Shown here one piece after another: positions 1 to 64,000 of a stretch of DNA of 64,000 nt. Every line of letters begins with the position of its first letter. Positions within the stretch are counted from its first letter, which is position 1. The notes under the pieces are model-generated. The model was not told the DNA's origin, made no database searches, and saw nothing but the letters and a program-made list of their open reading frames with translations. Origin of the DNA: Boothiomyces macroporosus. Taxonomy: Eukaryota > Chytridiomycota > Chytridiomycetes > Rhizophydiales > Terramycetaceae. The translations under genes were made by a program, and so were the position numbers. The DNA lies in contig JADGKB010000003.1 of NCBI GenBank assembly GCA_027604185.1, positions 62,001 to 126,000 of the forward strand, in the 5' to 3' direction.

Positions 1-114
1 ATATCAAAGCAAGTCTTTTACAGTCGATCAAAGATATGATTCGCGATCAAACTCCATTCTATGAAGTAAATCACTCTAATCTAGTCTGTTCATATCAATA
101 TTATTGCAGCATTC

Positions 115-3100
115 ATGTCTGCGGATATTAGAAGTATTGATTTAGATCCTTTTGTAAAATACCTTTCCCAAAACTTTTCTTCTTTTGACAGCTCAGTAAT
201 GTATCCATATGACATGGAAGATGCAATACTAATTTGGATGAATCAATGTTTAATAATGTTAAAAAAGAATGAACAGTGGAAATCCTTGGTTGGAGACATT
301 TCAGAATTTGATGATCTAGCACAGGACTTGGAAAATGGATGGATGATGTGTGCTTTGATCGCAGGATATTATCCTGAAAAATGCAAAGAAAAATACAAAA
401 AAATCAGCGTTGGGACTGAGTTATCGAAAAACAAAGTAGAAAAAAACTATCGACTGCTCCAAGAATTGGTTGAAGTAACAAGCAAAGACCTGGTGGTCCC
501 TTGGAAACCAGTTGATATTACATTTAGTATGGACAATCAAAAAGTCTCGAGTGGCAATATCTCTTACCTATTCGTATCATTTTTAGCTAGATTTATGACA
601 ATTGTGCAGAAAAAGAATTTGGTGTTTTTGGCAAACAAAACAGCGATAAAGGAATTGAAGGCAGAACGAAGACGAGCGGCAGAATTAAAGAAAATTGAGC
701 AAGAAAATGAAGACTTGGTTGAAATTCATGTTTCTGGTGAAAAGAACAATGCTACTAGGGAGGATGCCAGTGTAGCTGAGCCAGTGGTAGTTGCTACACT
801 TGATGAAAAAGTAAATTCCATACAGCCGGCAATTTCTAATTCGGATAACCCACAAGTACTCGAAGAAACGCCTTCAGTTGATTCATTGGAACCAACTTCT
901 TTTGTAACTAATAATGATGGTAGTACTTTGGCCCCAAATACCGGAAATATTGGCATAGTTTCCAAGGAAGACAGTCCAATCGAGGAACCAGTAAGTGAAA
1001 AGAAAAAGAAAGGATCAAGGGGCAAAAAGTCAAAAGAAAATGGGACTGCATGTGTTTCTACAGATATTGCTATCCCAATAACGGATGTGATAAGTGTTGA
1101 AAAGACTGAACCCCCAAGTGAAGAAAATATCCTGGAAATTTCACTGGATAGTCTTCCAATAGTAAAGCCAAAATCAAGAAAAAAGAGCTCATCAGGAAAA
1201 AATAAAAGATCCATAAAGTCTGCAAGTGAAAAAGCAGAGTCGCCGTGTATATCAACCCCATTGTTGATGGCAACAGAACAAATTATGGAACGCATAGACA
1301 CGGAGCAGAATATCAAAGAACCAAAAAGATCAAAAAGATCATCTCAAAGTGGAAAGAAGTCTAGAAGGGCCGAGACTTTGGCTGGAGGGGAGGAGATATC
1401 AAAATTATCTACCGCAGGCTTACTTGATCTTGCAGACTCTAATAACGATATTCCTACTTCAATCAATCAGGAACTGGAATCACACACTTCTGGAATTGAT
1501 TATGAAAATGTGGAAACTGTGCAGAAACTATCGACAAAAGACAAAACTTTACCTGAAGACTTGGCGGATAATTCTGACTTACCTATCAAGAAGTGCGAGT
1601 CTAAAAAGAGAGTAAAAAGTAGTAAAAAGTCATCAAGAAAGCAAAAGCTGGCTCCAGTTGAAATTCTGGATGAAACTCCAATTCTAGGAAGCTCTCCTAC
1701 AGGAAACATCAAATCTGATATTGAATCTACGGGCAAATTGGATCAAGACAAATTATCCCTTCCAACATTGGTAGTACCGAGAGCTGCCGAAAAGATAAAT
1801 CCAAAGAAACTTCAAGTAGAGCATTTGCCAAATATTTTTGATTCTCAAGTTGAAAGAACATGCGTGGGTCCAGATATGGCCGAAACTCCAAACGAGAAAC
1901 TCCAAATGGACAATGAAGATACATTCCACTCTGGCTTTGACAATCTAAAGGATATTCCAGACCCTATTCCACAACCAAACGAAATATCTGATATTGAAAA
2001 AGGAAAATACAAGGTTAATTGTACCACTAGCGATGAAAGCGACGATGAAATGGACGAAGAAACATGGAATATGATTCTCAAAATCAGAAATTCTAGTGAA
2101 AAATTAATTGAAGAATCCAACAAAATTGCAAGACAATCAAGTGGTAATTCAAACGACCAAAAGACAATGAAAGAACCTCAATTTGAGAAAATACATTTCC
2201 AAGATACCATAGTTGATAGTGACGATGATTTTTCATTTATCCCTTCGAACCGGGGAGGAACAGCTATGGCTGCTGAAGAGAGTCACCAAAAACTAAAGCC
2301 AATATCAAGACCAAGAACTGGACTACAAACGTATCCTTTGCCTGAAAGTGATGATGAAAAGAATCAAGCATCCAATTTGGATTTGAATGACTCCAAAGGC
2401 GAAGAGTCATGGCAAAGGGTGCAGAAAATGAAAAGATTGGCTAAATTAACACCTAAAAGCAAATCAGAAAAAAAGAAATTATCTGCAAACGCAGAAGAGT
2501 CCAAATCTAAACTTACTTCTTTGCCAAAGGAAGAAACGAAACCATCTCCAGCAAAATCAAAGCAAGAAAAAGAGGAAGAAATTACCAAAAAGAAACTGTA
2601 ACTAATTCCTAATTCAAGGGAACAAGTCAAACTTCAAGAGCAGATAATATCAGAAAAATTAAAGAAGCGGTCCGAGAAATTGATTGAATCTGCGCGACAA
2701 ACCCCCAAACCTCCAAAACCAGCTTCGAGCAAGTTTCGAAAATCCTTGTCGACTAAATCCAACAAGAACTTGATTAAAAATGCACTGATGCATGTGTGTC
2801 TGGCGGGAAATCTGAATAAAGGGGTAAAGGAAGAAGTATTGCAGGTATCAAGGAGCTAATGTAGGATTTGACCGAATCAGAAGCAAACCACTTTGTGATA
2901 CTACTTCGAGATGTAAACAATTTTGCTTTCAGAGGACTATACTTTTGGGATCCAAATTTAGACCAAACCTTGAAATTATATTCTGGAAGTCCTGGACCAA
3001 CTGAATTAGATCCAGCAGGTGTTTTAGAGTTTTACAAGTACGACAGTGGCGCAAGAACATTTAAACCGATACCAACTAAAAGCTTTGGTAGAACTGTTGA

Positions 3101-3143
3101 TGCAATTGCAATTGGAAGAGATTATTTTGTTCCAAATAAATAA
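115..3143 (+). CDS. CAMSAP/Patronin-type microtubule minus-end protein
   Basis: Predicted microtubule minus-end binder. Residues ~30-160 resemble the CAMSAP-type calponin-homology domain (EDAILIWMNQ, LENGWMMCALIAGYYP, YLFVSFLARFM). A long Ser/Lys/Glu-rich disordered middle follows. The C-terminus is a clear CKK domain: IKNALMHVCLAGNLNKG, then SEANHFVILLRD, LEFYKYDSG and RTVDAIAIG. The domain is only complete after removing two introns, 2598-2618 (21 nt) and 2845-2864 (20 nt, gtatcaaggagctaatgtag), the second inside CKK. The reading frame starts at the ATG at 115 and ends with TAA. About 990 residues. The convergent neighbour is GCP4, another minus-end protein. CKK is best known from animals and some other flagellate-bearing eukaryotes, so its presence beside fungal genes is notable. 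Family assignment is secure from the CKK; the microtubule role is inferred from the family. Confidence 0.9.
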
Positions 3144-3212
3144 TTTTCATCAATAGGAAACTTTATTTCATTGAAAACCAACGATTAAAGTCAAATCTGA
3201 TTAGAAACTTGC

Positions 3213-4943
3213 TCAGGCTTGAAGTAGAAGCATCTTGAATCCCACTAAACACTTTGAAGAGAAATACAAAATTAGATTCGATTTCCTACAATTATTATGA
3301 ATTACTTTGACTTCTGCATCAAATTTATCTGGATCAGAGTGGTCATATCGGTCTATAAATACACTTGTGCGTTGGATAGATTTAATGATATCTTGAATTG
3401 CTTTCGATATTTCCACACTCGACGTTGATTGATTTAGGAAACATCCTTTAAATAGTTCAACCAATACATTTCTGTGGTATTCCATCATCTCATGAATCGT
3501 TATGTCCTTTTTTTCTTCAGCATCGCAAATTAATTTAGCATATCTAGAGTCTATTATATCCATTTGAATATAAGCCCAAAGACAATTCATGAAATGGGTT
3601 TGTTGCGCAACTAGTGATCTTAGCGCCGAAGGGACAGTTTTCTTTTTCAATAATTTCCATGCTTCCAAATTTTGCCTCATGGTATTACGAATTACTAGTA
3701 AAAAATTGAAAATTGTATTGTAGCTACGTTAATCTTACCGTTACCTTTCCAGATCTTCCTCGGATATCAAAATATTTACTGGCCATTTCAAGTTGTATTT
3801 CAAAAGTATTTTCGATTCAAAAAGATACCTGTCATAGAAATTAGAATTACTTTCAACAAGTGATAGTGAAAAAAGATCTTCTATCAAGCTCTCCTCTTCT
3901 GGAAACACACACTCGACAGTATCATTGAATACCTGATTTAGTCCACTTGATGTGATTGGAATTAAAGTATCAGTGAGGCGTTTCTTGTACTTGATGCTCT
4001 TGTCTATGAATGTGTCCAAATACTCCACAAATCCACCCAAGTATATATGCCTAAATAACTCTAGCTGTCTTGACAGGTCATTGTTTTCTGTGATTGCTCT
4101 TAATAATAGAACCCCCACTTTTTGCCGCATTTCGTATATATCCTTCAAGAATTCTCTGATTCTAAACTGTGTGCCAGTCATATTTTCCCTGAACTTTATC
4201 AAATATTCTTTCAGTAGCTGCTTGGAATCTGATAGTCCTGACTGAAGTTCAAACAATGTAGAAATAGCATTTCCAATAAATATAAGGTCTATACATGATT
4301 GATTGGAAAGAAAGTAAGGGATATGATCTTCTCTGACTCCATATTTCAACCAAAGGGACGGGGATTCGGTCTAGATTAGAAAAAGGTACTTGCTAAATTA
4401 GATAATCATTACATATATAAATAGACTTGGCTTTTGATTGCACAGCCATTCGGTCAGCAGCTTATGAAAAGTAAATAAACATCCTTTGAGCACTTTTTTG
4501 TAAATTTCTTGCAGTTGTGGGATACCAGTAGAAATAACTTGTAGGTGAACAAAATTCATCACTTGCACTCCCTCCATTGACTCGAACCGTTCATAAAATC
4601 TCAAAATACTAGCAAAATAAACGAAATAGTTTTCCATTTGAACATGGATGCTCGATAGATTGAGTTCATTCTTCATTGCTAACATTTCCAAAGATGAAAT
4701 CAGGGTGCGATATTCGTTGAGCCAACAATCTACTTCTTGCTGCACAGTCATTTTGAATACGTCAGAATCCAGCTTTGTGTTATTGATCTGCTGGTACTGA
4801 AATCCCAAAAGTGAGAGTTTATTCAGCGCTTGTTTCTCTGCTTCATGTAGAAACAGAAACTCTTGAGATATAGTTAAATTTGATTGAAGTCTAAATAAAT
4901 CTCCTTCGTATCCCAGCATCGTCAAAAGAAGTTCATGCAGCAT
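3213..4943 (-). CDS. Gamma-tubulin complex component 4 (GCP4/GRIP family)
   Basis: Gamma-tubulin ring complex subunit, nucleating microtubules at the organising centre. The N-terminus MLHELLLTMLGYEGDLF and FLFLHEAEKQALNKLSLLG match the GCP4 start, so I begin at the ATG at 4943 rather than the upstream in-frame extension. The C-terminal GRIP2 region shows LKWPVNILIS, TMRQNLEAWKLLKKK and QTHFMNCLWAYIQMD. Two breaks are repaired by splicing. One is a 21-nt intron after DLE, giving the family-typical YNTIFNFLL. The other, at 4371-4412, is either one 42-nt intron or two introns (20 and 19 nt) around a 3-nt exon CAA. About 550 residues, close to the family but with a shortened centre. It lies 69 bp from the convergent CAMSAP gene. 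Confidence 0.88.
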
Positions 4944-5192
4944 TTTTCGATTGGCAAACTTTCGGACAGCAATAAAACAAATGAAGTAAACTAGCGTGAA
5001 AATGATTGGCACAAGTGTTTTCCATATTGATACAGAGAATATCTCTGTGAATCGGGAAGACGAGATCTTTTACTAGTGCATCCAAAGACACCTGATCTTG
5101 TTGGATGGTCTCGAGCTGTTAATCTCTTGAACAATAAGATATGGGTCGAAGGTGGTGGCAACTCTACAAATCATTTGACTATTTTCTTCAAA

Positions 5193-6106
5193 ATGACTCA
5201 ATCAGCAAAAGTAGGATTTGAAGGAACCATCGGTTCTTTCTCTGAAGAGGCTCTCAACAACTTATTCCGCCAAGATGCATTCCAACAGATTCAAAAAGAA
5301 GCGATCGGCTTCCCAACCTTTGAAGCAGTTTGCCAAAAAGTCGCGGATGGTTCGCTCAAATACGGCTTACTTCCTATCGAGAATTCAATTGCTGGATCTT
5401 GCTTTGATGTGCTTGATCTGATATCCAAGCATAACCTTTCAATTGTTGGTGAATATGAACAAGAAGAGCGTCAATTGCTGGTCGCTCTACCTGGAGTTTC
5501 ATTGAATGAAATTACTGAAGTTCACTCACATCCTTATGCCTTTGATCAGTGTCGTCCATACCTTGCTACACTTAATAAGAAGCTGGTTCAAGCACTAGAT
5601 ACCGCGGAATCTTGCAAACTCATCCAAAACCAAAAATCCAAAACCATTGCGGCAATTGCTGGCGCTTATGCAGCTAAATTATACGGGCTGAATGTATTAC
5701 ATGAATTGGAATCTCTCGCTGTCACACGCTACATATTGGTTTCAAAGACAGCTGTCATTCCAGAAAGACACTTGATTCCTAGGACCTCCATGGAAATCGT
5801 CTTGAAGAATCAAGTAGGAGCGTTTCTTAAAGCCATCACTGTATTTTCACATCGTGACATCAAGTATGGATACACTAACCTAGCATTTCAAAGATTGAAA
5901 GCAGACCTTCCTCAAGATCTATTCTGCTAAGAAAGCCTTGGGAATATGTTGTTTATCTTGATGTTGATGGAGGATTAAATGAAGACAAATTGGGCAAAGC
6001 GATTGAAAACCTCAAAGAATTTGCTACTGTAAGAGTTCTTGGTTCTTATCCTCGTTACCAATCTCCTCCTAAAGAATCCTCTGGAGTCTATGGATTTGGA
6101 GTCTAA
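5193..6106 (+). CDS. Prephenate dehydratase
   Basis: Converts prephenate to phenylpyruvate in phenylalanine biosynthesis; presumably cytosolic. The N-terminal PDT domain has VGFEGTIGSFSEEAL, FEAVCQKV and YGLLPIENSIAGS, with the conserved substrate-binding segment VTRYILVSK. The C-terminal ACT regulatory domain contains KIESRPS and LDVDGGLNED. A 20-nt intron at 5864-5883 (gtatggatacactaacctag) splits the ACT domain; removal restores RDINISKIESRPS and then KPWEYVVYLDVDG. The start is the ATG at 5193, because the upstream in-frame extension has no family similarity. About 297 residues, normal for bacterial/fungal stand-alone PDTs. Phenylalanine feedback through the ACT domain is known for the family and inferred here. 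The gene argues that the organism makes its own phenylalanine. Confidence 0.93.
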
Positions 6107-7442: not shown

Positions 7443-8319
7443 ATGAGCTGCAAGTGCGACCCAGAATTCAAAGACGGATACAAATATATCCAATGGATCG
7501 GAACAATATTCAGTGATTGCGTATACACACCAATTGAACAAGTATCATTTTACATTGCCTTTGTTGGATTATTTTGCTCATTGATCGCCATGTTTCCCCA
7601 GTTCTACACTAATTACAAACTAAAGAATGTTCATGGATTATCGTTTGGTTTAGTGTTGTTGTGGACTGCTGGAGATATTGCATCGTTGGCTGGAACTATA
7701 TTGACCAGGCAGTTGACTACTCAAAAATGGACGGCAATATTCTTTACTATTATCGATGTTGCGATGATGGCCCAATACATCTATTACAGCAGATTTTATC
7801 CTGAAGTGTATCCCAGTGAATATGTACAAGTACCAGATGTGGATGAAGAGGAGTTTGAGCCATCACCTTCCCCTAGTTCAAGCAGTGTTCCAGGCACTCT
7901 GGTTGCAGCGGCAATGGTACCTGGAGCAGCAGCAATGTTCCTACCTCTTCGATCTACGGTAATTGAACTGTGCAACGTAACATCTGCAGTGCCGACTGAA
8001 GGCAAAATTATTGGTTATGTTCTTGCGTGGTTTGCAGGTTTATTCTATTTCTGTAGCAGGTACTTTATGTTAATGTAGAATTCCACAGCTTATTCAAAAT
8101 CACAAGGAGCAATCTGTTCATGGGCTGTCACTCTATTTGTTTTTGCTGTCAATAGCTGGAAATGTTGGCTACGGAGTGTCAATCTTCTTGAGAATGCCTC
8201 CAATTGATACAGAGTTCTTTTTATCAACATTTCCGTACTTGGTTGGCTCTATTGGTGTAACAGCGCTTGATTTTGGGACTCTGTACCAGGCATATTTGTA
8301 TGGCGGGTTTGATTCTTAA
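7443..8319 (+). CDS. PQ-loop membrane transporter (Ypq/PQLC2-like)
   Basis: Seven-TM PQ-loop repeat protein, probably a vacuolar/lysosomal cationic amino-acid exporter like yeast Ypq1-3. The first PQ motif is FPQFYTNYKLKNVHGLSFG. The second, RIPQLIQNHKEQSVHGLSL, is broken by a 19-nt intron at 8060-8078 (gtactttatgttaatgtag) and appears only after splicing. A hydrophilic acidic/Ser-rich loop (PDVDEEEFEPSPSPSSSS) separates the halves. The C-terminus ends in LVGSIGVTALDFGTLYQAYLY. About 285 residues, as expected. Substrate is inferred from the family. Confidence 0.88.
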
Positions 8320-8413: not shown

Positions 8414-9694
<1,281 letters not shown>

Positions 9695-10348: not shown

Positions 10349-11579
10349 CTATTGTTGAGCACATTGGACTTGAGGGCCGTGACCTTCTTCCTCGTCTTGC
10401 ACAGGCTGGTTTCTGGCTTGTCTGCTTGTGTCTACTTCAGATAATACGACTTCTTCAACATGCTTGTCCATAGGAGTATCAACGGTATGTCTAGGAGGTA
10501 ACACAGTTTCTAAAATTGCCAATTTAGAGTTGTCTACCCAGTTTGGCTTTGGGAATTCAATATCAAATTTGACGTAAAGTACACCTTTGTCGAATGGAGC
10601 TTTATATCTATGGTTAGTTAATTACTTACGTTGGCATTCCTTCGTTATTAATTGCTTTAACACTTCCAGGGGTGATAACTTCACCAGGCAAGATGTTCAC
10701 CATCAGTACTCTGTCATCGAGATGTGGAATAGTGAATGGACCACCAGCAAGTGCAGTTAATAGATCAATTTTGACATCAGTGTATAAATCGTTTCCTTTA
10801 CGTTGGAATCTGCTGTGTTCTTTTTGTTCAATAACAATCACGATGTCACCAGGGATAATTCCCGGTGCTTGATCGCCCTCTCCAGTGAAAGTAATCTTTT
10901 GACCATCCAACATACCCTTTTCAATGAATACTTCCAAGATTTTGCGTTCAGTGGCAACCTTACGACCATTACATGCTTTACATCTGTCTTTTTCTTGGAT
11001 AACTTCACCTTCACCCTGACAATCTGGACAGGTTTGTTGCATTTGTTGAATCATAGGGCCCATTTGACGCATAATGATTTTAACACCACGTCCGTTACAT
11101 CCAGTACAACTTTTAACAGAACCTTCTTTTCCACCGCGACCTTCACAAGACCCACACAACACTTGTTTTTGTAGAGCAAGTTTGGACGTTTTACCCTTGT
11201 ACAAATCTTCAAGACTGACTTTAAGACCGTGAGCCATATCTTTGCCTTTTCTAGGACCTCTCTGTTGCTGTCTACCGCCTCCAAAGAAACCACCGCCTCC
11301 ACCAAATAGTTGGGAGAACAAGTCTTCTGGATTCACACCATGACCACCATCACCAGACAGACCTTCTTCGCCATATCTGTCGTAAACTTGTCTCTTTTGA
11401 TCATCTGAAAGAACTTCATAGGCGTGAGATATTTCCTTGAATTTATCACCAGCATCAGGGTTTTTGTCTGGGTGATACTTTAGAGCCAGTTTTCTGTATG
11501 CTTTCTTTAATTCACTTTCAGAGCAGTCTGGGGATACTCCTAGAATGTCATATAACTTAGTTTCCTTTGGCACTGGCAT
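10349..11579 (-). CDS. DnaJ/Hsp40 co-chaperone, type I (Ydj1/DNAJA-like)
   Basis: Co-chaperone stimulating Hsp70 ATPase. It has a J domain with HPD ([14 protein letters not shown]), a Gly/Phe region, then four CxxCxGxG-type zinc repeats ([32 protein letters not shown]) and a C-terminal peptide-binding domain. A 22-nt intron after NNEGMPT joins the last exon ([19 protein letters not shown]). The protein ends in CAQQ, a CaaX-type farnesylation signal like that of yeast Ydj1, which suggests membrane-tethered, cytosolic function. The start ATG at 11579 gives [15 protein letters not shown]. About 400 residues, normal for type I DnaJ proteins. Confidence 0.95.
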
Positions 11580-11917: not shown

Positions 11918-12377
11918 TTATTCTTCCAACGGATCAATAGATTGTAGCAACTTTATACCACGAACATGCGTATCTTTACCGTTCTGATGGTTTACCAACA
12001 CAGCTACTTGAATCATAAAGGTTTTTTGACCTGCCACGGGTATATCAATCCATCCGCTTGGTTCTGGATTAGTTATTTTTACCATCAAACTCTTGCTTGG
12101 CAACTTCTTGCAAAGTATCTGGATTGGTTCCCATGCGAATTGATATCACCTTTGGCGAGTAAGACTCATCCTGTTTGAAATCAAAGTAAACCGAAACAGT
12201 ATTTATCCTGGTTCTTTTTTTGAAGTTGAAATTGATGTAGTGAGGCTGAGGCCCGTCCGACTGCCAGAAAGTCTCCAAGTTTGAATCTAGAAGCTGTTTG
12301 ATTGAAAATCCTGGTTTGTATGACGACACAGAGATGAGCGCTGCAGAAGTCAAGTCCCTTTGAGTTGGATTGGACAT
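11918..12377 (-). CDS. APC10/Doc1 subunit of the anaphase-promoting complex
   Basis: DOC-domain processivity factor of the APC/C ubiquitin ligase, helping to bind D-box substrates. Conserved DOC motifs are SSYKPGFSIKQLLDSNLETF, WQSDGPQPHYINFNF and QVAVLVNHQNGKDTHVRGIK. A 19-nt intron at about 12067-12085 (gtaaaaataactaatccag) splits the domain; splicing gives EFDEPSGWIDIPV, as in human APC10. The start is the ATG at 12377 (MSNPTQRD). About 146 residues, a minimal DOC domain lacking long extensions. Confidence 0.93.
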
Positions 12378-15690: not shown

Positions 15691-15691
15691 A

Positions 15692-25165: not shown

Positions 25166-25310
25166 TTCGCGTCAACTTGTTTGTTATTTATAGATTAACT
25201 TACCGCGACTCGAAACTTGGGCCACATCCATGTTGGATACCAGCTACAACATATTTGACTGTGAATAAATCGGACAAATCGCTCGGCCAAGTGATATTTT
25301 TAATTTTTCC

Positions 25311-27598: not shown

Positions 27599-27611
27599 GT
27601 AGAAAATTTCT

Positions 27612-50448: not shown

Positions 50449-50789
50449 ACCTCATCAAGGAATAAATCTCATGTGATTTTATCGTTTCTTTTAGCAATTT
50501 GATATACGCGATTGACATCATCGTCTTATCGCCTTTGTATCATGAGCACAATCTTTTAAGAGCAGTAAACCGTTGCTTCGTAGACTTCCTGCTCTTTTCC
50601 ATTGAAAGTTACTTAATGTAAATAACAAAGTCGTCATTAACCGAAAGCAGGCAGAAGATGTCCTGATATCAGTGAGCTCAATTCCCAAAGCAAAAGCAGT
50701 CCCTTTATCCCAACTGTTCTTCTGAGATAAAACGAATTATTGTTCTTGATCAATGACGCGTGTTAAAACTTGTTTCCTCACTGGACTAG
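50449..50789 (+). other. Gap with unexplained open frame
   Basis: After a possible acceptor (tttcttttag) near 50495, one frame stays open for about 45 codons with hydrophobic, protein-like content (AIDIIVLSPLYHEH, CFVDFLLFSIESYLM). A second open segment (AEDVLISVSSIPKAKAVPLS) follows. No start codon or consistent intron joins them, so no gene is called. Confidence 0.2.
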
Positions 50790-51147
50790 ATGGGCGTCAT
50801 TGCGATTAAAAGTGTATCAGAATTCGAATCACAAGTTAAAAATGCTTCACATGCAATAGTAGATTTTTACGCAGACTGGTGCGGACCTTGTATAACAATT
50901 GCTCCAATGTAGCCGTCATTAATATTAGGATAGAGCAGTTATCCGCGGAAAATCCGCATATTTCATTCTATAAAGTAAATGTGGATGCCGCAACAGTACA
51001 TTAGATTAATCCAAGGATATCAGTGAATGTAACCAGGTACGCGCGATGCCAACGTTTAGCTTTTACGACAAAGGAAAGAAGACGCATGATGTGGTAGGTG
51101 CGGATATCAAAAAAATCAAGCTGTTGATTGGAGAAATCAACAAATAA
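50790..51147 (+). CDS. Thioredoxin
   Basis: Small dithiol oxidoreductase. The active site WCGPC lies in VDFYADWCGPCITIAP, and the conserved cis-Pro region is RAMPTFSFYDKGKKTHDVVG. Two 20-nt introns, near 50908 (gtagccgtcattaatattag) and 50996 (gtacattagattaatccaag), interrupt the gene; splicing gives MIEQLSAENPHISFYKVNVD and then DISECNQVRAMP. Start at ATG 50790 (MGVIAIKSVSEFESQV). About 105 residues, the full-length family size. It is fully invisible as an ORF because its exons are short. Confidence 0.95.
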
Positions 51148-51172: not shown

Positions 51173-53780
51173 ATGAAATTTAAACTGTGGAAATCACAAA
51201 GAAGAATTCATATTGGCGATTTAGTAGCACTACAAAAGTAAGAATTATTTAATAAGAAAAACCGCTGTCTTGGGCATAGTCATTAAATCCCCCACTCCAA
51301 CTAACAGCGGGTACTTGTCTTTGACTTCGTTTGGACATTTAACCGAGCATTCCTTGGATAATGTTACGTTTTCAAATCCAAAGTGGGCATACAGCTTGGA
51401 TAATTTGGATGATTATCGAATACCACCTGGAATGACTGATTCTACGAGGGAATTACTGGAAAAATATGGAATCCCATTACACATTACAAAGCATTTGCAA
51501 GAGTTTCAGAGGTGCTCGCTTCAGTACAAGACGGAAATTGAAGCTACGGAAAAGGAAATGTACGATAGTCTACCTGGAGATGTTGATTTGGCCAAAGCAG
51601 CCCAATTTATGTTCAAAGTTCAGTCACCAACACCAGCAGAAAAGCTGGCAATCAATGAAATTTTAATGAAAGGAACTCACTATCAAGTAAAGCTTTCGAA
51701 CGAAAAATCCAATCCGCTATTTATTAAACGCAGCCTTGAGCAAGTACAATTTATTGAAAGTTGTTTGGACGCAATGCAGTCAAGAGACAATAGAAACAGC
51801 AAGTTAATCAACTTTCTAAGCAAAATTAAGCCAGTAATAATTGCTACTCGAAGTGGCCAATTATTAAAAGTAGACTGGAGTGATGATGATTTGGATTTTA
51901 TCAATTTCATCAAAGATTATCTACGCATAGGGCCCAACCAGCCAGCAGTAGAAACCAAGATTATCACGGTGGGAATATTAAAGAAATTGGGGCTATATTC
52001 CTTTTATCCTTCACAGCAAGATGCAATTAAACTACTTAAAGAAATCGGAGTTTTTACTCCTCATGAAGATTTATCATTGTATCAGTACAACCCAAAAGGA
52101 TATTTGGGGCATCTAGAGTATCTTTCTTCAGTTGGCGATATTGCAACCCAAGAAGCAAAAGATGAAGCTGCGTTACTAGTCAACAGCGGTAGCTACGTTT
52201 ATGAAAACTCTGCTTCGAGAAAGAGCAGTCCCACTTCCTTGGAATCAAAGCCGCTATCGGCTAATCAGGAAGTACAAGAATATGTAAAAAAAGTGGTACA
52301 TAGTAGCTTACCTCTCGAAAATTACCCTACCAGTGATCCAACCGAAAAACTCCGTCAAGTTGTCTCTGAACCTGTCTACACCATCGATGAACCAACAGCC
52401 CATGAATTAGATGATGGAATTTCTTTAGAAGAAACAGAGACAGGCAGCTGGTTACATGTTCATATTGCAGATCCCACCGCATACATATTGCCCGGAAACA
52501 AACTTGCAAACTTGGCACAGATAAGAGGAACTAGTATTTATTTACCGCATATTCATTTTCCAATGATGCCTGATGTTTTATCCAATGAACTATTTAATTT
52601 GGGCAAATCACCTTGTGCCTTAACGTTAAGTGCTAAAATTGGAGAAGATGGTGAAATTTTGGACTACAAAATTACTCCTTCGATCTTGGAAAACGTCAAA
52701 ATCACGCACTACTCCTCTGTCGATAGGGCACTTGAAAACGGATCAGAATCAACACTAGACAACACAGATATTTCCAGATTGAAGAAAATGCATGAACTGA
52801 TCAGCAAACATCGCAAAAGTAGAATTCGAAACGGAGCGTTTATTCCGGATCAAATTGATTTGTCCATTAAAGTAGACGAAGAGCCATTGACGATTTCATT
52901 GAGGGATCCAAGAACCAATTTTTCAACTCCTGGCCATTTTGAAAAGAACACAATTACAGTGAAAACAAGCTCTTCAGTTCGCTCACTATCTCACCAACTA
53001 GTGTCAGAGTCAATGATTATAGCTGGCCGAGTTGCTTCCAAATTTTGTCAAGATAGAAGAGTTACTACTGCCTATAGACATCAGCCAGATATTGTGGATA
53101 ATTTGGATGAACATGGATATCATTCATTAATTCCTACCGTCGAAAAGATTCTGGATAATGTTCGCAGTTCTATTGATCCTGATACTGGAATCATCCCTAT
53201 TGCAGTTTACGAACCCCTTTTGTCATATATGCCTCCAGCAAAGATGATCATGAAACCACTTGGTCATTTCAGTATGGGTATTAATGGTGATTTCAATGGC
53301 TATGTAAAGTCCACTAGTCCACTTCGGCGGTATCAAGACATGTTGGTTCACTGGCAAATCAAGGCATCGCTTCTGAATGAAAAACAGCCATTTAGCGATA
53401 GTCAGATAGTAGAAATAACAGAAAGAATGAACGAAATTACTGGGAGTGTGAAATCTCTAAACAAAAGATCAAATAGATACTGGCTACTAGAGCATATTCG
53501 AAGATTGTGTTTCAACAACAGCGTGGACAACAAATCGGTCAGCGTTCTGGGAAGGAATTCATTAGAGCCGTATGTAAATGACGGTAGTGGACCTAGATTT
53601 AAAGGTGTTGTAGTCGCGAATTTAGGTAATGGAAATGTACTAGTAAACTTGCCAGAGTTTGGAAATTTCAGGTCAAGATGCTTAGTGGATCAACAACCGC
53701 CCATAAATTCTGAAATCACTGTCCAAGTGGAGAAGGTTATTCCTGACATTGGTTTTTGTTTAATGTCAAGTGTCCACTAG
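51173..53780 (+). CDS. RNase II family exoribonuclease, Dss1-like
   Basis: 3'-5' exoribonuclease with an RNB catalytic domain. The first exon (MKFKLWKSQRRIHIGDLVAL) is joined by a 19-nt intron (gtaagaattatttaataag) to KTAVLGIVIKSPTPT. The RNB core shows IDEPTAHELDDGISLEE with the catalytic acidic cluster, HVHIADPTAYILPGN and a C-terminal CAL/RNB segment YVKSTSPLRRYQDMLVHWQI. An S1-like end (GVVVANLGNGNVLVNLPEFG) follows. The ELDDGIS variant and N-terminal layout resemble mitochondrial Dss1/Cyt-4 rather than Dis3. About 862 residues. Mitochondrial RNA turnover is the likely role; no strong targeting peptide is obvious. Confidence 0.88.
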
Positions 53781-55201: not shown

Positions 55202-56006
55202 ATGAACCAACTGCCTTATGAACTAGTATATTCAGTATTGGACCATTTACCTTTATATATGCTCAAGAATGTCTCGATACAAGTATCGCATATATGGAGA
55301 AAATGTGCATTGGAAATTATCCAAAGCAGGCTACAGTCTTACATCACGATAATTAAAGAATTTCCAAGTGAAAAGAGCACGCCAGATCTGATGAATGTTT
55401 TTGAAAGTGAAAGCAAGGGCAAATCGTTTGCAGCTTGGATTCTAGGTAATTTCGAGCATCCAGCAGAGTCGCAAGTGTTTACGGGAATTGAACTAGCTAT
55501 TGATGGATTTGATGTTCAAAAATGCTCTCTAGTATTTAGGCCTACCGGGTAAGGGAAAGCTTAACGTTAGTAATGCAACATTTGGTATGTTTGTGGATCA
55601 ACTGGGCTATGTTCCAATTACCTCTCTCTACGAATGGAATTCTTTCAACTTTAGAAAAACAGTTGCACCGGTATTGCAGTTATGGTTCCATATGTTAAAT
55701 GCCGACCATGATTTCCCTAATATCATTCAATCAAACAATGTCAATTCAAAGCTTCCTCTTGGAACAAGATCTATCGCTCAAACTATCGGCCAACATAAAA
55801 TGATTCTCAAAGATGACATTGGATATACCGGGTTTATTGAATATGAAATTACTAGCACTGGATTGCTCGAATCAAACATGGATATTCCAGCTGGGGCGGT
55901 TGGAGAATCAATCCTGCAATTCTACCAGCAGGAAGAACTAAAGGTAATCGGCAAGATCAAAAGCGTACATATAAACCCACAAGTATTATTCCTAAAACCA
56001 TTATAA
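55202..56006 (+). CDS. F-box protein
   Basis: Substrate adaptor for SCF ubiquitin ligases. The N-terminal F-box is MNQLPYELVYSVLDHLPLYM followed by SIQVSHIWRKCALE, starting at ATG 55202; the upstream in-frame segment has no F-box similarity. A 22-nt intron near 55550 joins FRPTG to NATFGMFVDQLGYVPITSLY. The rest (~220 residues) is beta-rich-looking and unrecognised (DDIGYTGFIEYEITSTGLLE, GKIKSVHINPQVLFLKPL). About 260 residues. It ends 14 bp from convergent cyclase A. Confidence 0.75.
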
Positions 56007-56020: not shown

Positions 56021-58291
56021 TTATTGGCTTTGATTTTCTGTTACGTTTTCTGAAATATTAGCTAGTTGAGAGGCTTTTGCATCCGGAAGAGCGGGGTCTA
56101 AATTATTGTCTACAGATGGAGTTTGTTGGGCTTTAACCTCGCTTGGATTAGTCGCTGTTTCCTTTGCTTCAGTTGCAGACTCTATCGCTTTAGTGGGTAA
56201 TTCAGAGTCTGTCGCCGCTCCAGTAGGTGGAGTAACAGTCACCGGAGGGGCAGCAGATGGATCAAGTGGTTTGTCCCTTACGGATAAAACTTCATAGACC
56301 AATACTTCCTTTTGCTTTCCTTTGAATTGCCTGGATCCAACTGCTGCTGCTTCTATCCTATCCTTCACATATTCGTATGTATATTCCGAAATTAAGACTT
56401 GGTTCATTTTAGACATGGAGCAGATTCTGGATGAAGTGTTCACACTATCACCAATAACGGTATATTCTAATCTCTGAGAGCTTCCAATGAATCCAGCAAG
56501 TAAGTCACCTAACATTAGCCATTCATTTACCAGTATTGACACCCACACCAATAGAAATAGGCTCCTTGTTGAAACGTGCACGATCTTCATTCATATCCTT
56601 GATTGCGGCTTTAAATTCGAAAGCAGCAGAGACACCCCTGAATTCTGCATCCTTGTCGTCTTCTAATGTACCAAAGACTGCCATTAATGCATCACCAATG
56701 TATTTATCTACCACACCATTGTATTTGAAGACTATGCGAACCAGCTGAAATTAATTCGAAATTACTCTTTCAAAATAATCGTTCAGTAAATGTACGACTT
56801 CCACTGGAGTACTCTTTTCACTCATGTTGGTAAATCCACGGATATCTACAAATATAATTGTTCCAACCATTTGCCTGCCACCCTTTCGAATGATTTCAGA
56901 TGGGTTTGACATTCTTTGAACTACATGCGGAGCCAAGAATCTAGACAAATGTTCCTTCACTTTTGCATTTTGTTCATACTCTGCCATTAAGATAGAGTTC
57001 TCTATGGCAATAGCAGTTTGGTTGCTAATTGCAGTTACAATAGACAAGTCCTTTCTTGAAAATGTGGTAATTGAATCGTCTGAATCTAAATGTATAATTC
57101 CGTGAACCTAAAATTAATTCTTGTTACCTTGTTGTGGCCGACAAGTGGTAAGCAAATAACACTGCGCATTTGGCTATGCATGACACTAGCTGCTGCTTGA
57201 AGAGACTTATCTTGGGTAGCATCAGTGGTAACTAAACATTTTCTAGATTCGTACACCCTCTTTAAAATTGTAGAACTGAGCACAATTTCTTTGCCTTCTT
57301 CTCCAGCAGACCTTAGTTTTACTTGATGCGTTGCCAGCGTGCCAGTATTTTGATCTACCAAAAGAACCACACCTCTATCAACAGGTAAAATTTCAAATAT
57401 TAAATCTAGGGACTTTTCTAAATGTACAGATAAATCATTTGTCAGAGTTACTTTGGACAGCTCGTAGGCCAATCGAAGCTTCTCGTAGTCTTCACGCAAA
57501 ACGTTTGGATCCGTTACCAGGTCAACCTTCTTGAAGTCAACATTTTCTTCTTCGATTTCCGCTTTGATGGCGATTTTCTCATCGTAAGAATTTAGAGATG
57601 GCAAGATTGTTACCAGCTTTAGATTGTCTTCTGTTCCCTTGGTGGCCTGCTTGGGAATTGCGGCCAAAGATTCGTAATACAGCAATTTGATGGATCCTAT
57701 CATAATTGTGTCTCCTGCTCTTAGCGGTGTAGGGACACCTGGGGTAACAAATTGGTCATTTACTCGTACGCCATTCGAGGAATTTCTATCTACAACGGAA
57801 ACTCTAGAATATTAATTATAATCTAACCCTTCTGGTTTTCTGTATAATATTGCGTGGAATTTAGAAATCGTTGCATCCGTCAGAATAATGTGATTGTCAT
57901 CCTTACGACCAACATGCGTCTCTGCTCTTACCAAGGGATAATTCATATTACCTCCATAACTGGTATGGTAAACTAAATAAGGAGCAGTGTTTGGATCTGA
58001 AAATTCGTTTGGCTCTGGAGGTGCTGCAGCGACTGTTGACCGTACTACTAACTTTGGGTTGAGATTCTTTTCTGCATTACGGTTTGGAGCCATTGTATCA
58101 GTTTCGTCTTCTAATTCGACATTCTGCTTTTTCTTATCTGCTTGCATATCTTGTCGGGAATTTGACAGTGGTGTGGTTTCTCCTTTACTTTCGATACTTG
58201 CCTGTGATTTCTGACTCCTGAATCTCATTGGGAGATTTTTCAGAGACTTCATATACGACATTTTCTTTGTGTGTCCTCCATCAGTACCCAT
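56021..58291 (-). CDS. FHA-GAF class III nucleotidyl cyclase (copy A)
   Basis: Predicted soluble adenylate cyclase. Order: disordered N-terminus, FHA domain (THVGRKDDNHIILTDATISK, DRNSSNGVRVND), helical linker, GAF domain (LDLIFEILPVDRGVVLLVDQ, RSVICLPLVGHNKVHGIIHL), then cyclase domain. Catalytic landmarks are FVDIRGFTNMSEKS (first Asp), VDKYIGDALMAVFG (adenine-specifying Lys, second Asp) and RLEYTVIGDSVNTSSRI. These fit class IIIb adenylate cyclase. Four introns (24, 20, 21, 22 nt), the first with a GTTAGA donor. The Thr/Glu/Pro-rich tail is ~90 residues. About 725 residues, no membrane segments. Phosphothreonine and small-ligand control are inferred from FHA and GAF. Confidence 0.9.
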
Positions 58292-58637: not shown

Positions 58638-60803
58638 ATGGCTGAATTTCTACGACTGCTTGGGGATTTATCTAACATGTCCAAGCAACTGCCAATCGGA
58701 ATTTTGAAGCACCACTTCAACGATTATGACCCAGCACAGTCGAAAAGCTTAAAGGATTCTATAATCCATTTCCATATGAGCGACCTAGAATCATCGGATT
58801 ATCGCTCCGCATATCATCAATTTTGCGACTGGCTGTACGGATGGAGTGTATCTGATGGAGCGGACGATGAATTCACCAAACGCACGCCAAGAGATATTAA
58901 CATGGAGCATGAAAGGGAGAAAACGGACGCCCAACGTCTAATGAACACATTTGAGACACTCACTTCAGTCAGTCTTCGCCATTTGAAAGTGTGCTATGGT
59001 GAAATTGAATCTCTAATTCCAAACATTGGGAAAGGAATCGAAACAGGAACAAAAACGCCAGAAGAATATCTTTCGACAGATCTAACTGCAAACACAACAC
59101 ATCTAAAGGAAAAGCTTTGGGGAATGAATCTAGTTCACAGCTCCCAAGCTCAAATAGAAGAGTTTAAAGAATTTGAATTGGTATGCATGGGATTAATATT
59201 AGGAACCCGAAGCAGAAGTAAAGAAAGCTGCCAGCATTCCAAATACAGCAGGCTCCTCCACCTCGGATCTGAAAAGCAATGGAGATAGTTTGTACGAAAG
59301 AACAATGTCACTGGAAGACGTTCCATTAAGAGAAGGTGTTCTCTCAAGACAAGGAAGTTTCAAGTTTAGCGTTTCCAGGCAGCCATCGATGCCACTGGTA
59401 GCTGAAATTAAACCCCCACAACTGCAAGAAAAGGAAAATATCCCAGAGTCAGAAGAAAATCTTGCTGACAAAGAGGAAGAGCAACGAAAGAGAACTCATA
59501 ATGACATCAACATTATTTACTCCAAAGTCGATCAATGCACTGAATACGCATTACTAGCGATGAGTGGAATCGCCGCGATTCTTGGGTTTGCTGAGCTACT
59601 AGGTGACAAGGAAACCTTTCTAAAAGCCAACTTGTGGGCACATGAAATATCGCAAGAATTCGTATCCAATACGCTAAAGACTGTGTGGGACCTTTTACAT
59701 TTAGAAATACCAAAGCTCGTAACTCTCAGTAAACTGCGGGATCCTATGCAATTAAAGCTTCTATTTCAAGAAATAGGGCAATTGCGAACAGCCAGTGGGC
59801 TAGGTCCGAAGCTTCCTTCAAGAAAGATTTATCAAAAGTTTTCCACCTTGCATGATGCAATGAGACTCGCGGATATTCATATATTTCCCAATTTTGCTCA
59901 TGTACACAAAGAAGGTCCCTCTTTTCTCATATAGGTGTGAAATGCGCAAACTTTTCTGCCTTTGACAGCTCCTTATGGTTAACTGGAGGGTACGACTGCA
60001 TTATTAGAATAACGGATATCAGACCGCAAAACAAGCATATCTGTTTGGCACAGTACGTTGGCCACAAATCAATCATCACTGATGTTCAGTTTACCAGAGA
60101 GGATACTCATATAGTATCGTGCTCTTTTGATCGCACAGTAAAAGTTTGGAACTCTCAAACTGCTACAATTGACAAGAATTTGGTAGGCCATATTGACGCC
60201 GTTACAACCTGTGATGTATCTTCAGATGGAAGGTATATTGCATCTGGCTCGTTGGATAATACAATTAGATTTTGGGATTTCAACACAGGAGAGTGTATTA
60301 CCGTCATAAAAAAGCATTCGAGATGGATTAAAAAGGTCAGATTTACACCGGACTGCAGGTACTTGGCTTCCGCGGGAATGGACCGTAGAGTTTACATCTG
60401 GGACACAAAGATACTTGTAAATTCCAGATCACCTTCCCATTCTAGATGTTTCGACAGTTTTAACGACTATGTTCTAGATATGATTCTGTTTAAACCCTCA
60501 TACTTACTTACGACATCGAGAGATTCAATGCTACACTTGTTTGATTACATGTCTGGCCAAGAAATCTATTCTTACAGCTTGCAGCCTTCCTGGGCTTGCA
60601 CACTATCTCTAAGTGAAAATGGGGAATACTTTGCTACCGGCTCTTTTGACAATAATATTAACATATTTAGAACAAGAGATTTTGTCAAAGTGCGGGAAAT
60701 TAGAGCATTCAATTTGGGCATCATGTGCGTAAGATTTCCGAACGATCTCAGCTATGTTCTAGTAGGAACAGCTGAAGGTTTCATCCAACAAATTCCACTT
60801 TAA
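58638..60803 (+). CDS. WD40-repeat protein with helical N-terminus
   Basis: The N-terminal ~420 residues are helical and unrecognised (MAEFLRLLGDLSNMSKQLPI). The C-terminal ~300 residues form a WD40 propeller of about seven blades: SCSFDRTVKVWNSQTATIDK, SGSLDNTIRFWDFNTGECIT and SAGMDRRVYIWDTKI. Two introns: one of 22 nt after EEFKEFEL, and a 20-nt GTCCCT-donor intron at 59915-59934 (gtccctcttttctcatatag) that restores HKEGVKCANFSAFDSSLWLT. About 708 residues. Placed between two FHA-GAF cyclases; whether it scaffolds them is speculation. Confidence 0.75.
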
Positions 60804-60841: not shown

Positions 60842-62779
60842 TCATGGGGAAAGTTCAATTGCTTCATAGATCATAACTTCTTTGTCTTTTCCTTTAAATT
60901 TGCTGTAACCCACAGGCTGGCACACCACCTTGTCTTTGATACAATCATAAGTTGCCTGAGAAAGTAAAACTTTATCAGCGGAAGCCATAGACTGTATTCT
61001 AGAGGCTGTGTTCACAGTGTCTCCAATACAAGTATATTCCAATCTCTGGGAACTGCCAATAAACCCAGCCAGGAGAAGACCTAGGATAAGCAATTACATA
61101 CCAGTATTGATACCGACACCAATTGAAATCGTTTCCTTTCCTGCCCTGCTACGTTCGTGATTCATGTCTTGGATAGCCTTTACGAATTCTAGTGCAGCAG
61201 CCGCCGCTCTATACTCTGCTTCTTTTTGGTCTTCCAAAGTTCCGAACACAGCCATCAGACAATCACCGATATACTTATCTACAATCCCATCATATTTGAA
61301 AACGATTTTAACCAGCTAGAATTAATCATAAAGTACCCTCTCGAAAAATTCATTTAATAAGTTGACAACTTCCATTGGTGTACTTTTCTCACTCAAGTTG
61401 GTGAAACCACGAATATCTGCAAATACTACTGTTCCAGTCATTTCACTGCCTCCCTTTCGTATAATTTCTGATCTATTTGTCATCTTTTGAACAACATGAG
61501 GCGGTAAGAATCTGGATAATTGGTCAGTAATTTTTGCTTTTGCTTCTACTTCTTTAATCAAGTTCATGTTTTCAATAACCGCTGCAGTTTGATTCCCGAT
61601 TGTTTTAACCAAGGATAAATCTTTGTTTGAATACGCATTGATTCTATCCCTGGAATCCAAGTGCAGTATTCCATACACCTTGTTGTGAGCGATCAGCGGA
61701 ACACAAATAACCGATCGGATTTGCCCGTGTCTAACTGAAGCAGCCCTACCAAGAGTTGGATCTTCATATGCATCTGAGGTTACAAGGCACTTGCGAGTGT
61801 AAAACACCTTGTAAAGGATAGTCGAGGACAAAAGAATTTCACGTTTTTCATTTGCCAATCCATGTCTCAGCTTTACATATTGGATCGATAAATATCCTGT
61901 GCTAGGGTCCACCAGACAAACCACCCCTCTATCTAAAGGTAGAATTTCGAATATCATATCAAGAGACTTAGAGAGCAGCTTGTTGATATCATCAGTGACA
62001 GACATTTTTGATAGCTCATAAGCCATACGAAGCTTTTCATAATCGCCACGGAGTGTTTCCACATCGTCAACCACTTCAATCCTTTGAAAAGCAACATCGT
62101 CTTCGGCCTCCAACTCGGCCCTAATCTCTGTTGTATCGTCGTATTTACGTTCGGAAGGTAAAATGGTTACCAAATTCAAATATTTGTTATCCGAATCCGC
62201 ATTAGATGCGGTATCTTGATGATTGTCTGCCTGGAATAACAGCGAAATAGGACCAATCATTATCACATCGCCATCCGTTAGCTTGTGTAATATATTTGGC
62301 TCGATCAAGCTGTCATTAATTCTAACTCCGTTCGAAGAATTGATATCTTTGATAAAGTAGCTAATTTAAAAAGCAGGTTACCCTTCTGCAGTCTTGATAA
62401 CTGCCGCATGTCTCTTGCTGATTTTGAAATCGGGTAAATTGATGTCATTTGTATCCTTACTGCGTCCGATTGTAGTCTCATTCTTTCTAAGCGTAAACTC
62501 CATTTTTCCTCCATAGTTGGTGTGATATATCAATTTCGCCGACATCTGGTCACTTTCGGAACCTCTTTGTTGCGTTTGAATGATTAAATTTTGAACTTGG
62601 TTTGCAAGCTCATTTGGGGTATCAGAGCGTGAAGTATCTGTAACCACTGAAATAGTTGAATTAGAGCGCTGAAATAAATTGGTTGGATTTGTGAGTGTAG
62701 TGCGTTCTTCAAACGAAGAGTTGTTTTGTCTCAACCCTACGTCTCTGCCGGATGAGGATGTTCGAGGTCTGTATGCCAT
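60842..62779 (-). CDS. FHA-GAF class III nucleotidyl cyclase (copy B)
   Basis: Paralogue of copy A with the same order. FHA: RKNETTIGRSKDTNDINLPD and KDINSSNGVRIND. GAF: LDMIFEILPLDRGVVCLVDP and RSVICVPLIAHNKVYGILHL. Cyclase: FADIRGFTNLSEKS, VDKYIGDCLMAVFG and RLEYTCIGDTVNTASRI. Three 21-nt introns; the FHA, GVN/ITG and ERL/V positions match copy A, but the copy A intron in HNK|VHG is absent here. The start is ATG 62779 (MAYRPRTSSSGRDVG). About 624 residues, lacking copy A's long tail. It ends 38 bp from the WD40 gene. Confidence 0.9.
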
Positions 62780-63085
62780 TTGATGCAAAAACGGAACTTT
62801 TAACACGCACAAAAACTAAAGGTGGCGTGATGAGCCCACTAGGCAGGAAAAGGGAATACAGAGCAGAATAAAGAATATCTCTGACATAATATTTTTATGC
62901 GCATATAGCTGGGTGATAGATTTGCCAGCGACTGTTCTGTTTGGGGCAGAAGATTATATTTGCTTACAGAGCCAGTAAAACCAAAGATTTCCATCTATAT
63001 GACTCTGTATTATACCTGTGATGTATGTATTTTCTCAAATAAATCCTGTCATTGTTCTTCCTGTCAAAAAACCACCTGTTGCAAA
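62780..63085. promoter_or_regulatory. Divergent promoter, cyclase B / kinase
   Basis: About 305 bp between divergent starts. An in-frame extension of the kinase frame back to 62960 (Cys-rich MTLYYTCDVCIFSNKSCH) exists but looks like leader sequence rather than protein. Confidence 0.35.
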
Positions 63086-64000
63086 ATGGAGCCAAAACCC
63101 AACGACACATCTAATGAGATGGATGACAGCAGTCAAGGAAAGAAATCGAGGCAGAAAAGTATTCAGCCAGATAATACAGTGAGCGAGGACAAATCTATAA
63201 AGAAAACGTCCGGAAGTAAAGGAACAGTTGTAGGGAATTACCAGTTATTGGAGACTATAGGAGAAGGATCCTTTGCCAAAGTCAAAATAGCAATCCATCA
63301 ACCAACTCAACAAAAAGTTGCGATTAAGATTATTGACAAGACAAAGATGACGGACGAATACTCAATCAAAAATGTACATAGAGAAGCCCAGGTCTTGCGA
63401 AGCTTGGATCATCCTAATATTATAAAGCTTTTTGAAGTGATGGAAACAAAAAAGAACATATTTTTGATACTGGAGTATGCAGAAGGAGGTGAATTGCTCG
63501 AATATATTGTCGATAAAGGAAAGCTGAAAGAAGAAGAGGCTAAAAGGTTAACAAAACAAGTATTATCTGCCATTGTAAGCTTCAGTTGACTGTAGGAACA
63601 CGCACACTCGATGAAAATTGTCCACAGAGATTTGAAAGCAGAAAACCTACTATTAGATGACAACATGAATGTTAAAATATCAGGTTTGTCTATTCTAACA
63701 CAGACTTTGGTCTCTCAAACTACTACGACCCAAAGAACTTTCTACAAACTTGTTGTGGCTCACCAGTCTATTCCGCTCCAGAACTTATTGATGGAAAAAG
63801 CTACATTGGGCCAGAAGTAGATATCTGGTCTTTGGGAATCAATGTTTATGCGATGGTGGTCGGCGACCTGCCCTTTGCTGACTCCAATTTAACTGCCTTG
63901 TATGAATCAATTCTTAAAGGAAAATACGAGTTACCGGAACATGTGACGCCAGGTATTCTAGGATTTAAATAAGATTGCCGGGATTTCCTAAGCAAGATGC
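63086..64000 (+). CDS. CAMK/SNF1-related protein kinase, cut by window end
   Basis: Ser/Thr kinase of the AMPK/MARK/NUAK-like group. ATG 63086 begins a polar lead ([17 protein letters not shown]). The kinase domain has [80 protein letters not shown] and [20 protein letters not shown]. Three introns (21, 20, 21 nt) are removed, one with a GTTTGT donor (gtttgtctattctaacacag) that restores SDFGLS. The kinase domain is nearly complete at the window edge (CRDFLSKM). Regulatory C-terminal domains, which would name the subfamily, are not visible. Confidence 0.88.

Follow-up and report, generated by a model that had tools for sequence, protein, structure and literature searches.

The genes of the chytrid Boothiomyces macroporosus (15.2-Mb assembly) are interrupted by ultra-short introns, an observation that our analysis confirms. 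Judging from their sequence, they are very probably true U2-type spliceosomal introns, shrunk almost to the functional minimum throughout the genome and removed by an ordinary spliceosome. The window studied is a stretch of 64,000 nt (positions 1-64000, or C3:62001-126000). It is one of three regions of 64-100 kb, 264 kb in all, which were scanned with a motif model alongside two decoy models, GT..AG ends being imposed by the intron finder. Together with 10 further loci on 10 contigs, about 296 kb of the 15.2 Mb were sampled.

Over the 264 kb, the motif model called 353 introns, all 19 to 23 nt long with a mode of 20, compared with 13 and 11 calls for the decoys, about 3-4% as many. In the window, 83 introns were called (18 of 19 nt, 34 of 20 nt, 22 of 21 nt, 8 of 22 nt and 1 of 23 nt), 4 of these calls being weak. 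Four more were added, 26139-26161, 47434-47454 and 47151-47171 by homology and 57804-57827 (24 nt) by an earlier model. These figures agree with the original prediction of about 85 introns of 19-24 nt in the window with a mode of 20-21. A run on the window with parameters estimated anew on the other two contigs gave 81 calls, all of 18-24 nt, and the decoys 3 and 2 in this range. Similarly, the 10 further loci gave 20 calls, all of 19-24 nt, and the decoys 1 and 1. The agreement between the three regions and the 10 loci bears out the predicted genome-wide occurrence, and extrapolation yields about 20,000 introns in the genome.

The introns located below comprise 79 of the 83 called in the window and the 4 added ones; single introns rest on the motif-model call unless otherwise stated. 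On the forward strand, introns of 19 nt were called at 66-84, 8060-8078, 12933-12951, 13504-13522, 13690-13708, 31750-31768, 36625-36643, 36770-36788, 44758-44776 and 51238-51256, of 20 nt at 2845-2864, 15969-15988, 23620-23639, 31223-31242, 31630-31649, 37070-37089, 43988-44007, 44189-44208, 59915-59934 and 63684-63703, of 21 nt at 2598-2618, 37257-37277 and 63575-63595, and of 22 nt at 55549-55570 and 59181-59202. The reverse strand carries introns of 19 nt (12064-12082, 14555-14573, 32499-32517), 20 nt (14870-14889, 24152-24171, 40817-40836), 21 nt (40966-40986, 42598-42618, 42924-42944, 61081-61101, 61316-61336, 62361-62381), 22 nt (10608-10629, 43420-43441) and 23 nt (40497-40519). Others were called in the forward-strand genes for prephenate dehydratase (20 nt, 5864-5883), an Obg-type GTPase (22 nt, 48423-48444; 21 nt, 48846-48866) and thioredoxin (20 nt each, 50909-50928 and 50996-51015), and in a reverse-strand FHA-GAF-cyclase gene (22 nt, 56509-56530; 21 nt, 56745-56765; 20 nt, 57108-57127). 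The 24-nt FHA-domain intron, also on the reverse strand, comes from the earlier model only and lies outside the set of 353.

The continuity of the encoded proteins was examined in eight conserved genes, a junction being considered correct when its alignment with one or more homologues was free of gaps within 3 residues. All 28 ultra-short junctions lying inside the homologue alignments join correctly. Except where noted, these introns were also called by the motif model. Two are in SDHB (+, both 20 nt, 22349-22368 and 22830-22849); splicing out the first, which had been given as an example, joins IYRW|NPDTP exactly. Four are in the MAP kinase gene (-; 20 nt, 9586-9605, 9380-9399 and 8779-8798; 21 nt, 8958-8978), where a fifth call (21 nt, 8505-8525) falls outside the alignment. 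The gamma-glutamyltranspeptidase gene (+) contributes five (20 nt, 25443-25462, 25918-25937 and 26666-26685; 21 nt, 26459-26479; 23 nt, 26139-26161), the 23-nt intron being supported by homology, with a weak branch motif, outside the set of 353. Five are in XRN2 (-; 20 nt, 33613-33632, 34281-34300, 35349-35368 and 35877-35896; 19 nt, 35923-35941) and three in the septin gene (+; 22 nt, 37936-37957; 19 nt, 38129-38147; 21 nt, 38417-38437); calls outside the alignments were made in XRN2 (21 nt, 32934-32954) and septin (20 nt, 37729-37748; 21 nt, 38674-38694). PRP16 (-) has six (22 nt, 45355-45376; 21 nt, 45521-45541, 46534-46554, 47151-47171, 47434-47454 and 47581-47601), of which 47151-47171 and 47434-47454 are stop-free, were missed by the gene finder and were found from P0001. 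The remaining three are in GCP4 (-; 20 nt, 3286-3305, missed in the deposited model P0121; 21 nt, 3724-3744) and tropomyosin (+; 21 nt, 49852-49872). For 3 of the 28 junctions, one in PRP16 and the two in GCP4, the support comes from close relatives only, and the proteins of these relatives are predicted too.

Two longer introns and two doublets show that the size rule has exceptions. The tropomyosin gene has two real longer introns, one of 52 nt (50053-50104, +) and one of 56 nt (50230-50285, +), the latter with a 9-bp hairpin, which correct the predicted length range of 19-24 nt. In GCP4, a doublet (4371-4412, -) is formed by an intron of 20 nt (4393-4412), the codon CAA, which is absent in relatives, and an intron of 19 nt (4371-4389). 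In the second doublet, at C2:58930-58969, an intron of 20 nt is directly followed by another of 20 nt. We also considered a distinct pattern of longer introns and rejected it: over the 264 kb, a flat length prior gave 13 calls between 31 and 60 nt, compared with 7 and 7 for the decoys, and most of them look over-extended because 8 of the 13 enclose an ultra-short motif intron or two.

It might be argued that the short lengths were created by the reconstruction itself, with real boundaries lying elsewhere and many introns being longer or absent. All calls are indeed gene-model predictions, the decoys do yield their 3-4%, and at least one window call looks false: 53752-53770, one of the 4 weak ones, is probably spurious because its reading frame passes a stop and continues into the following gene. 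Moreover, in a test for sense-strand depletion, cryptic intron motifs in coding sequence numbered 20, compared with 42 on the antisense strand and 33.5 +/- 5.7 in synonymous shuffles (20 of them), the caller itself removing strong motifs; at the median-score threshold the count was 1, against 1.95 in the shuffles and 1 antisense. We nevertheless hold such an artefact to be very improbable, since the length peak is present without any motif and with a flat prior. A gene finder devoid of intron motif and using a flat length prior was run on the window with 13 control dinucleotide pairs under equal penalty: 21 of its 46 GT-AG calls were 19-24 nt long, compared with 0-9 (median 3) for the control pairs, none of which gave a comparable peak. 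Gene finding tends to overlook 3n introns that lack a stop, as the two missed in PRP16 illustrate, and makes some false calls too. When the motif was combined with a flat prior, lengths of 18-24 nt were seen in 240 of the 302 calls over the 264 kb (decoys 2 and 1), and the 62 calls above 30 nt were no more than those of the decoys (81 and 60). The restoration of the homologous protein at 28 of 28 testable junctions also opposes an artefact.

The introns have the form GTA..YTAAY..AG, with a 5' consensus GTAATT. The branch site is exactly TTAAT, CTAAT, TTAAC or CTAAC in 230 of 361 introns and its adenosine mostly lies at nt 14-16. The predicted motif, GTA followed by a TAAY-like branch, was thus recovered, but the position of the AG, expected 2-6 nt later, needs correction: in 310 of 361 introns, the end lies 5-6 nt beyond the branch adenosine. 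The distances from 5' site to branch and from branch to end are uncorrelated (r -0.04, n=333, the 20 of the 353 introns outside the core ranges being dropped). A control of total length is unsupported, since the two spacings vary independently.

GT-AG ends and a branch motif complementary to U2 mark these introns as U2-type, and the lengths, nearly all below about 30 nt within a narrow range, as an ultra-short system. The snRNAs found in the genome are U1, U2, U4 and U6, with canonical pairing regions in U1 (ATACTTACCTGG), U2 (GTGTAGTA) and U6 (ACAGAGA); the U1 match, 68.8 bits, is slightly below the Rfam cut-off of 69.5. U5 was not found with its Rfam model, for which the positive control gave no match either, and Rfam and tRNA scans of the 64-kb window had no matches. 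Genes were found for Prp18, Slu7, U2AF65, SF1 and U2AF35, 4 of these 5 gene models holding 19-24-nt introns of their own; U2AF65 scored 230.7 bits in an unspliced search, against a curated cut-off of 310.3. In yeast, Slu7 and Prp18 are required for long branch-to-3' distances. A loss of Slu7 and Prp18 is ruled out here, both being encoded, and so is a loss of U2AF, the genes for both U2AF65 and U2AF35 having been found.

An intron of 20 nt leaves little room for ordinary assembly, which could speak for removal by self-splicing, a tRNA-type endonuclease or ribosome bypassing. This is extremely unlikely given the GT-AG ends, the intact pairing regions of U1, U2 and U6, and a branch motif matching the U2 pairing region, whose loss such removal would leave unexplained; moreover, 20 nt are too small for inverted repeats or ribozyme cores. 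We give an equally minute chance to U12-type introns. The branch motif TTAAC does look like the last part of a U12 branch site. U12-type introns, however, have a long 5' site, ATATCCTT or GTATCCTT, quite unlike the GTAAT-like one observed, and no U12 snRNA was found, in a search whose control was also without match.

For U2-type introns removed by an ordinary spliceosome, the GTAA at the 5' end would be read by U1 and then U6, and the YTAAY branch site, its adenosine about 15 nt in, by SF1 and then U2. The 3' site would be the next AG, 5-6 nt past the branch, too close for a polypyrimidine tract to fit in between. Each spacing is held tight, 14-16 nt from 5' site to branch and 5-6 nt from branch to end, and the two add up to introns of 19-22 nt. 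We infer splicing at these sites and this order of binding. The spacing makes crowding of U1, U2 and the catalytic core on the intron likely; they need not bind simultaneously, because U1 normally gives way to U6 before catalysis. Shrinkage presumably accompanied a general compaction of the genome, in which coding calls cover 210 of 264 kb.

A more radical reading, unlikely but with some modest chance of being right, is that early splicing differs from that of yeast and human and that introns longer than one unit are removed piecewise. Only about 8 nt would separate the 5' site pairing from the branch adenosine, and the U1 and U2 snRNPs could therefore not both occupy their usual places. U1 would have to hand over to U6 before U2 locks, or recognition would proceed across exons, and the doublets 4371-4412 and C2:58930-58969 would be spliced as two units around an exon of 3 nt or of zero length.

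Introns of this class had already been described in ciliates, in relict nuclei and in a rhizarian parasite, and Boothiomyces adds a fungus; no report of such introns from a fungus was found in the open-access literature, in which intron lengths of Batrachochytrium were also sought and not found. According to PMC10245619, Stentor has introns of 15-16 nt, mikrocytids of 16-17 nt and chlorarachniophyte nucleomorphs of 18-21 nt, while those of Cryptococcus, with a mean of 63 bp, are called 'relatively short' in PMC8476143. The original statement that the introns are near the minimum and far below ordinary fungal ones is consistent with both.

According to PMC9505925 and PMC10245619, Stentor coeruleus and other heterotrichs, free-living like Boothiomyces, share with it genome-wide ultra-short U2-type introns, a branch site whose position hardly varies, canonical U1, U2 and U6 motifs and a GTAAT-like 5' site without a favoured G at +5. 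Stentor, a ciliate, differs by its 15-16 nt introns, with the branch adenosine at nt 10 in 90.9% and a weak consensus, whereas the fungus has a spread of 19-23 nt, an adenosine mostly at nt 14-16 and a clear YTAAY. The chlorarachniophyte nucleomorphs (18-21 bp) have almost the same length range and are gene-dense too, but they are relict endosymbiont nuclei, not an ordinary 15.2-Mb nuclear genome (PMC10245619, PMC5014332). Mikrocytids (16-17 bp) likewise have narrow lengths and conserved motifs; they are intracellular parasites with 17-19 spliceosomal proteins and 224 introns (PMC10245619), whereas Boothiomyces has its extrapolated 20,000 or so and keeps U2AF, SF1, Slu7 and Prp18.

Compared with these other lineages, a fungus is a much closer relative of yeast and human, and this one has canonical U1, U2 and U6 pairing regions. 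If the introns are spliced as proposed, the smallest spliceable intron and the sharing of 20 nt by U1 and U2 could be tested beside well-studied spliceosomes, and the lower size limit for a normal spliceosome could be revealed, the parts of the machinery checked here looking ordinary. Genomes of this kind will be misannotated by RNA-seq mappers and gene finders whose minimum intron length is set, as is usual, at 20-30 nt or above.

Paramecium and Nyctotherus, also ciliates, have genome-wide ultra-short introns too, but longer (about 25 bp), and selection related to 3n length and stop codons is described for them in PMC5014332. In Boothiomyces, in-frame stops occur in 69 of 72 introns of 21 nt, stop-free ones being missed by the caller.

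A semi-Markov gene finder was built with codon usage and the GT and AG dinucleotides as its sole inputs and a flat length prior from 12 to 300 nt. At a penalty of -8, it called 46 introns in the window, 21 of them at 19-24 nt; when 13 control dinucleotide pairs replaced GT-AG at equal penalty, 0 to 9 calls (median 3) fell in this range. On 264 kb, formed by the window and the first 100 kb of each of contigs C1 and C2 of the B. macroporosus assembly, 169 introns were called, 69 of which measured 19-24 nt, the remainder being thinly spread over other lengths. Most of these short calls contained a TAAY-like motif, though the model never required one.

Combining a learned motif with learned lengths, we recovered 353 introns in the 264 kb, all of them 19-23 nt long (78, 158, 72, 40 and 5 introns of 19, 20, 21, 22 and 23 nt, respectively), versus 13 and 11 calls for decoys in which the motif model was reversed or complemented. 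Pairing the motif with a flat length prior (14-300 nt) gave 302 calls: 240 measured 18-24 nt, versus 2 and 1 for the decoys, and 62 exceeded 30 nt, versus 81 and 60. Between 31 and 60 nt a slight excess was observed, 13 calls versus 7 and 7 in the decoys; 8 of the 13 enclose an ultra-short intron, which accounts for most of it. The motif-free peak, the contrast with decoys and the 353 motif-model calls bear out the original prediction that nearly all introns measure 19-24 nt, and the presence of ultra-short introns in B. macroporosus is confirmed and well supported.

Their spread was assessed outside the training sequences. With parameters re-estimated on C1 and C2, 81 introns were called in the window, 18-24 nt long throughout (decoys: 3 and 2 of these lengths). 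A sample of 10 extra loci on 10 contigs (31.9 kb) gave 20 calls, all at 19-24 nt (decoys: 1 and 1); under the flat prior, 12 of 15 calls were in this range, versus 0 of 8 and 1 of 5 for the decoys. The proposal that such introns occur genome-wide thus held in the approximately 296 kb of the 15.2 Mb that were examined, namely the 264 kb and the 10 loci. The assembly of this species (Terramycetaceae, Rhizophydiales, Chytridiomycota) comprises 15,203,306 bases in 216 contigs, the window being bases 62001-126000 of contig C3; coding sequence occupies 210 kb of the 264 kb, and 116 of 155 gene models contain introns, with a mean of 2.3 introns per gene. Scaling up 353 introns per 264 kb would give roughly 20,000 introns genome-wide.

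The anticipated form, GTA followed by a TAAY-like branch site, is the common one among 361 introns. At the 5' site, A is found at +3 in 91%, A at +4 in 61% and T at +6 in 49% of them. Position +5 is T in 45%, A in 19%, C in 19% and G in 17%; given this weak G, U1 would pair with the 5' site chiefly via GUAA. The branch five-mer is TTAAT, CTAAT, TTAAC or CTAAC in 230 introns. With the branch site assigned as the best motif match per intron, the branch A lies at nucleotides 14-16 in 332 introns and 5-6 nt from the intron end in 310, with an additional AG between the branch and the final AG in 11. For exon 3' ends, the preferred base is A (57%) at position -2 and G (47%) at position -1. The information content is about 6.4 bits for the 5' site, 6.2 for the branch and 4.7 for the 3' end. 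Branch-A position and tail length being uncorrelated (r -0.04, n=333), the 5'-site-to-branch and branch-to-end spacings, rather than total length, appear to be maintained.

Junctions were then compared with homologous proteins; intron removal had to restore the homologous sequence and leave the alignment ungapped to a distance of 3 residues from each junction. All 28 ultra-short junctions inside homologue alignments, from 8 genes, passed: SDHB (2), MAP kinase (4), gamma-glutamyltranspeptidase (5), septin (3), XRN2 (5, the query being the first 922 of 1158 residues), PRP16 (6), GCP4 (2, both supported by two close relatives only) and tropomyosin (1). Four more, located beyond the alignments (MAP kinase 1, septin 2, XRN2 1), were excluded from this count. 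Proteins of close relatives, being deposited predictions, are weaker witnesses. In PRP16, two of the six introns are stop-free 21-nt introns overlooked by the gene finder. Two PRP16 junctions join cleanly in five other chytrids and Terramyces; a third is backed by Terramyces alone because the surrounding region is variable. The Polyrhizophydium stewartii PRP16 model (P0003) carries 6 and 14 additional residues exactly at the first two, introns 47434-47454 and 47581-47601. If these residues are short introns read through in annotation, the trait would span the order more widely.

Longer introns also exist. Two tropomyosin introns, of 52 and 56 nt, are each confirmed by seven relatives. The latter (50230-50285) contains a 9-bp hairpin capped by a GCAA loop (-11.8 kcal/mol, z -2.1), which might draw the intron ends together; folding of the 52-nt intron is unremarkable (z -0.6). 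In GCP4, a 42-nt stretch is made up of two perfect introns, first one of 20 nt and then one of 19 nt, with CAA between them; this codon is absent from both relatives and from the deposited B. macroporosus model. At C2:58930-58969, two perfect 20-nt introns directly abut.

These compressed introns are probably removed by an ordinary U2-type spliceosome. GTAA would be recognised by U1 and later by U6, YTAAY by SF1 and later by U2, and the 3' site would be the next AG after the branch. The 5' site pairing (to +6) ends about 8 nt before the branch A, and U1 and U2 may be accommodated on one intron by hand-over or by cross-exon definition. Between the branch five-mer and the AG lie 2-3 nt, too few for a polypyrimidine tract. 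The assembly encodes a U1 snRNA beginning ATACTTACCTGG (68.8 bits for a cut-off of 69.5), two U2 genes both keeping GTGTAGTA, a U6 retaining ACAGAGA, and U4. No match was obtained for U5 and U12, a result of little weight since the tool's positive control was silent for both. Prp18, Slu7 and SF1 are encoded, as are U2AF65 (230.7 bits, below the cut-off of 310.3 in an unspliced search) and U2AF35 (four pieces, 51-74% identity). The models of SF1, U2AF65, Slu7 and partial U2AF35 themselves contain 19-24-nt introns; that of Prp18 contains none.

Ultra-short intron systems are already known; the fungal host is what is new. In a survey of 644 fungal genomes, the Cryptococcus mean of 63 bp is rated 'relatively short' (PMC8476143). 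Our search of the open-access literature yielded no description of ultra-short introns for any fungus, Boothiomyces and Terramyces included. Deposited B. macroporosus models already excise such introns in GCP4, so public annotation contains the trait implicitly, whether or not it has drawn comment.

Our spliced GCP4 product (3163-4945) is 100% identical over 85% of its length to the deposited 'Spc97 / Spc98 [Boothiomyces macroporosus]', the next relatives being Boothiomyces sp. JEL0866 (75%) and Terramyces sp. JEL0728 (67%). The deposited model (P0121, 480 aa) begins late, omits the last intron (3286-3305) and terminates in a wrong tail, KPEQVSNQI; the relatives' ends agree with our corrected model. 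For the window region 49834-51147, the deposited JEL0866 tropomyosin P0124 bears the tail of the adjacent thioredoxin gene and seems to be two genes fused in one model. The adjacent genes at 56021-58291 and 60842-62779 are apparent paralogues; Pfam domains of the first are FHA, GAF and class III nucleotide cyclase. Three tandem genes at 23745-30560 are putative MNN1-type mannosyltransferase genes. Finally, visual inspection showed a roughly 40-bp direct repeat at 13891-13980, immediately downstream of a gene end.
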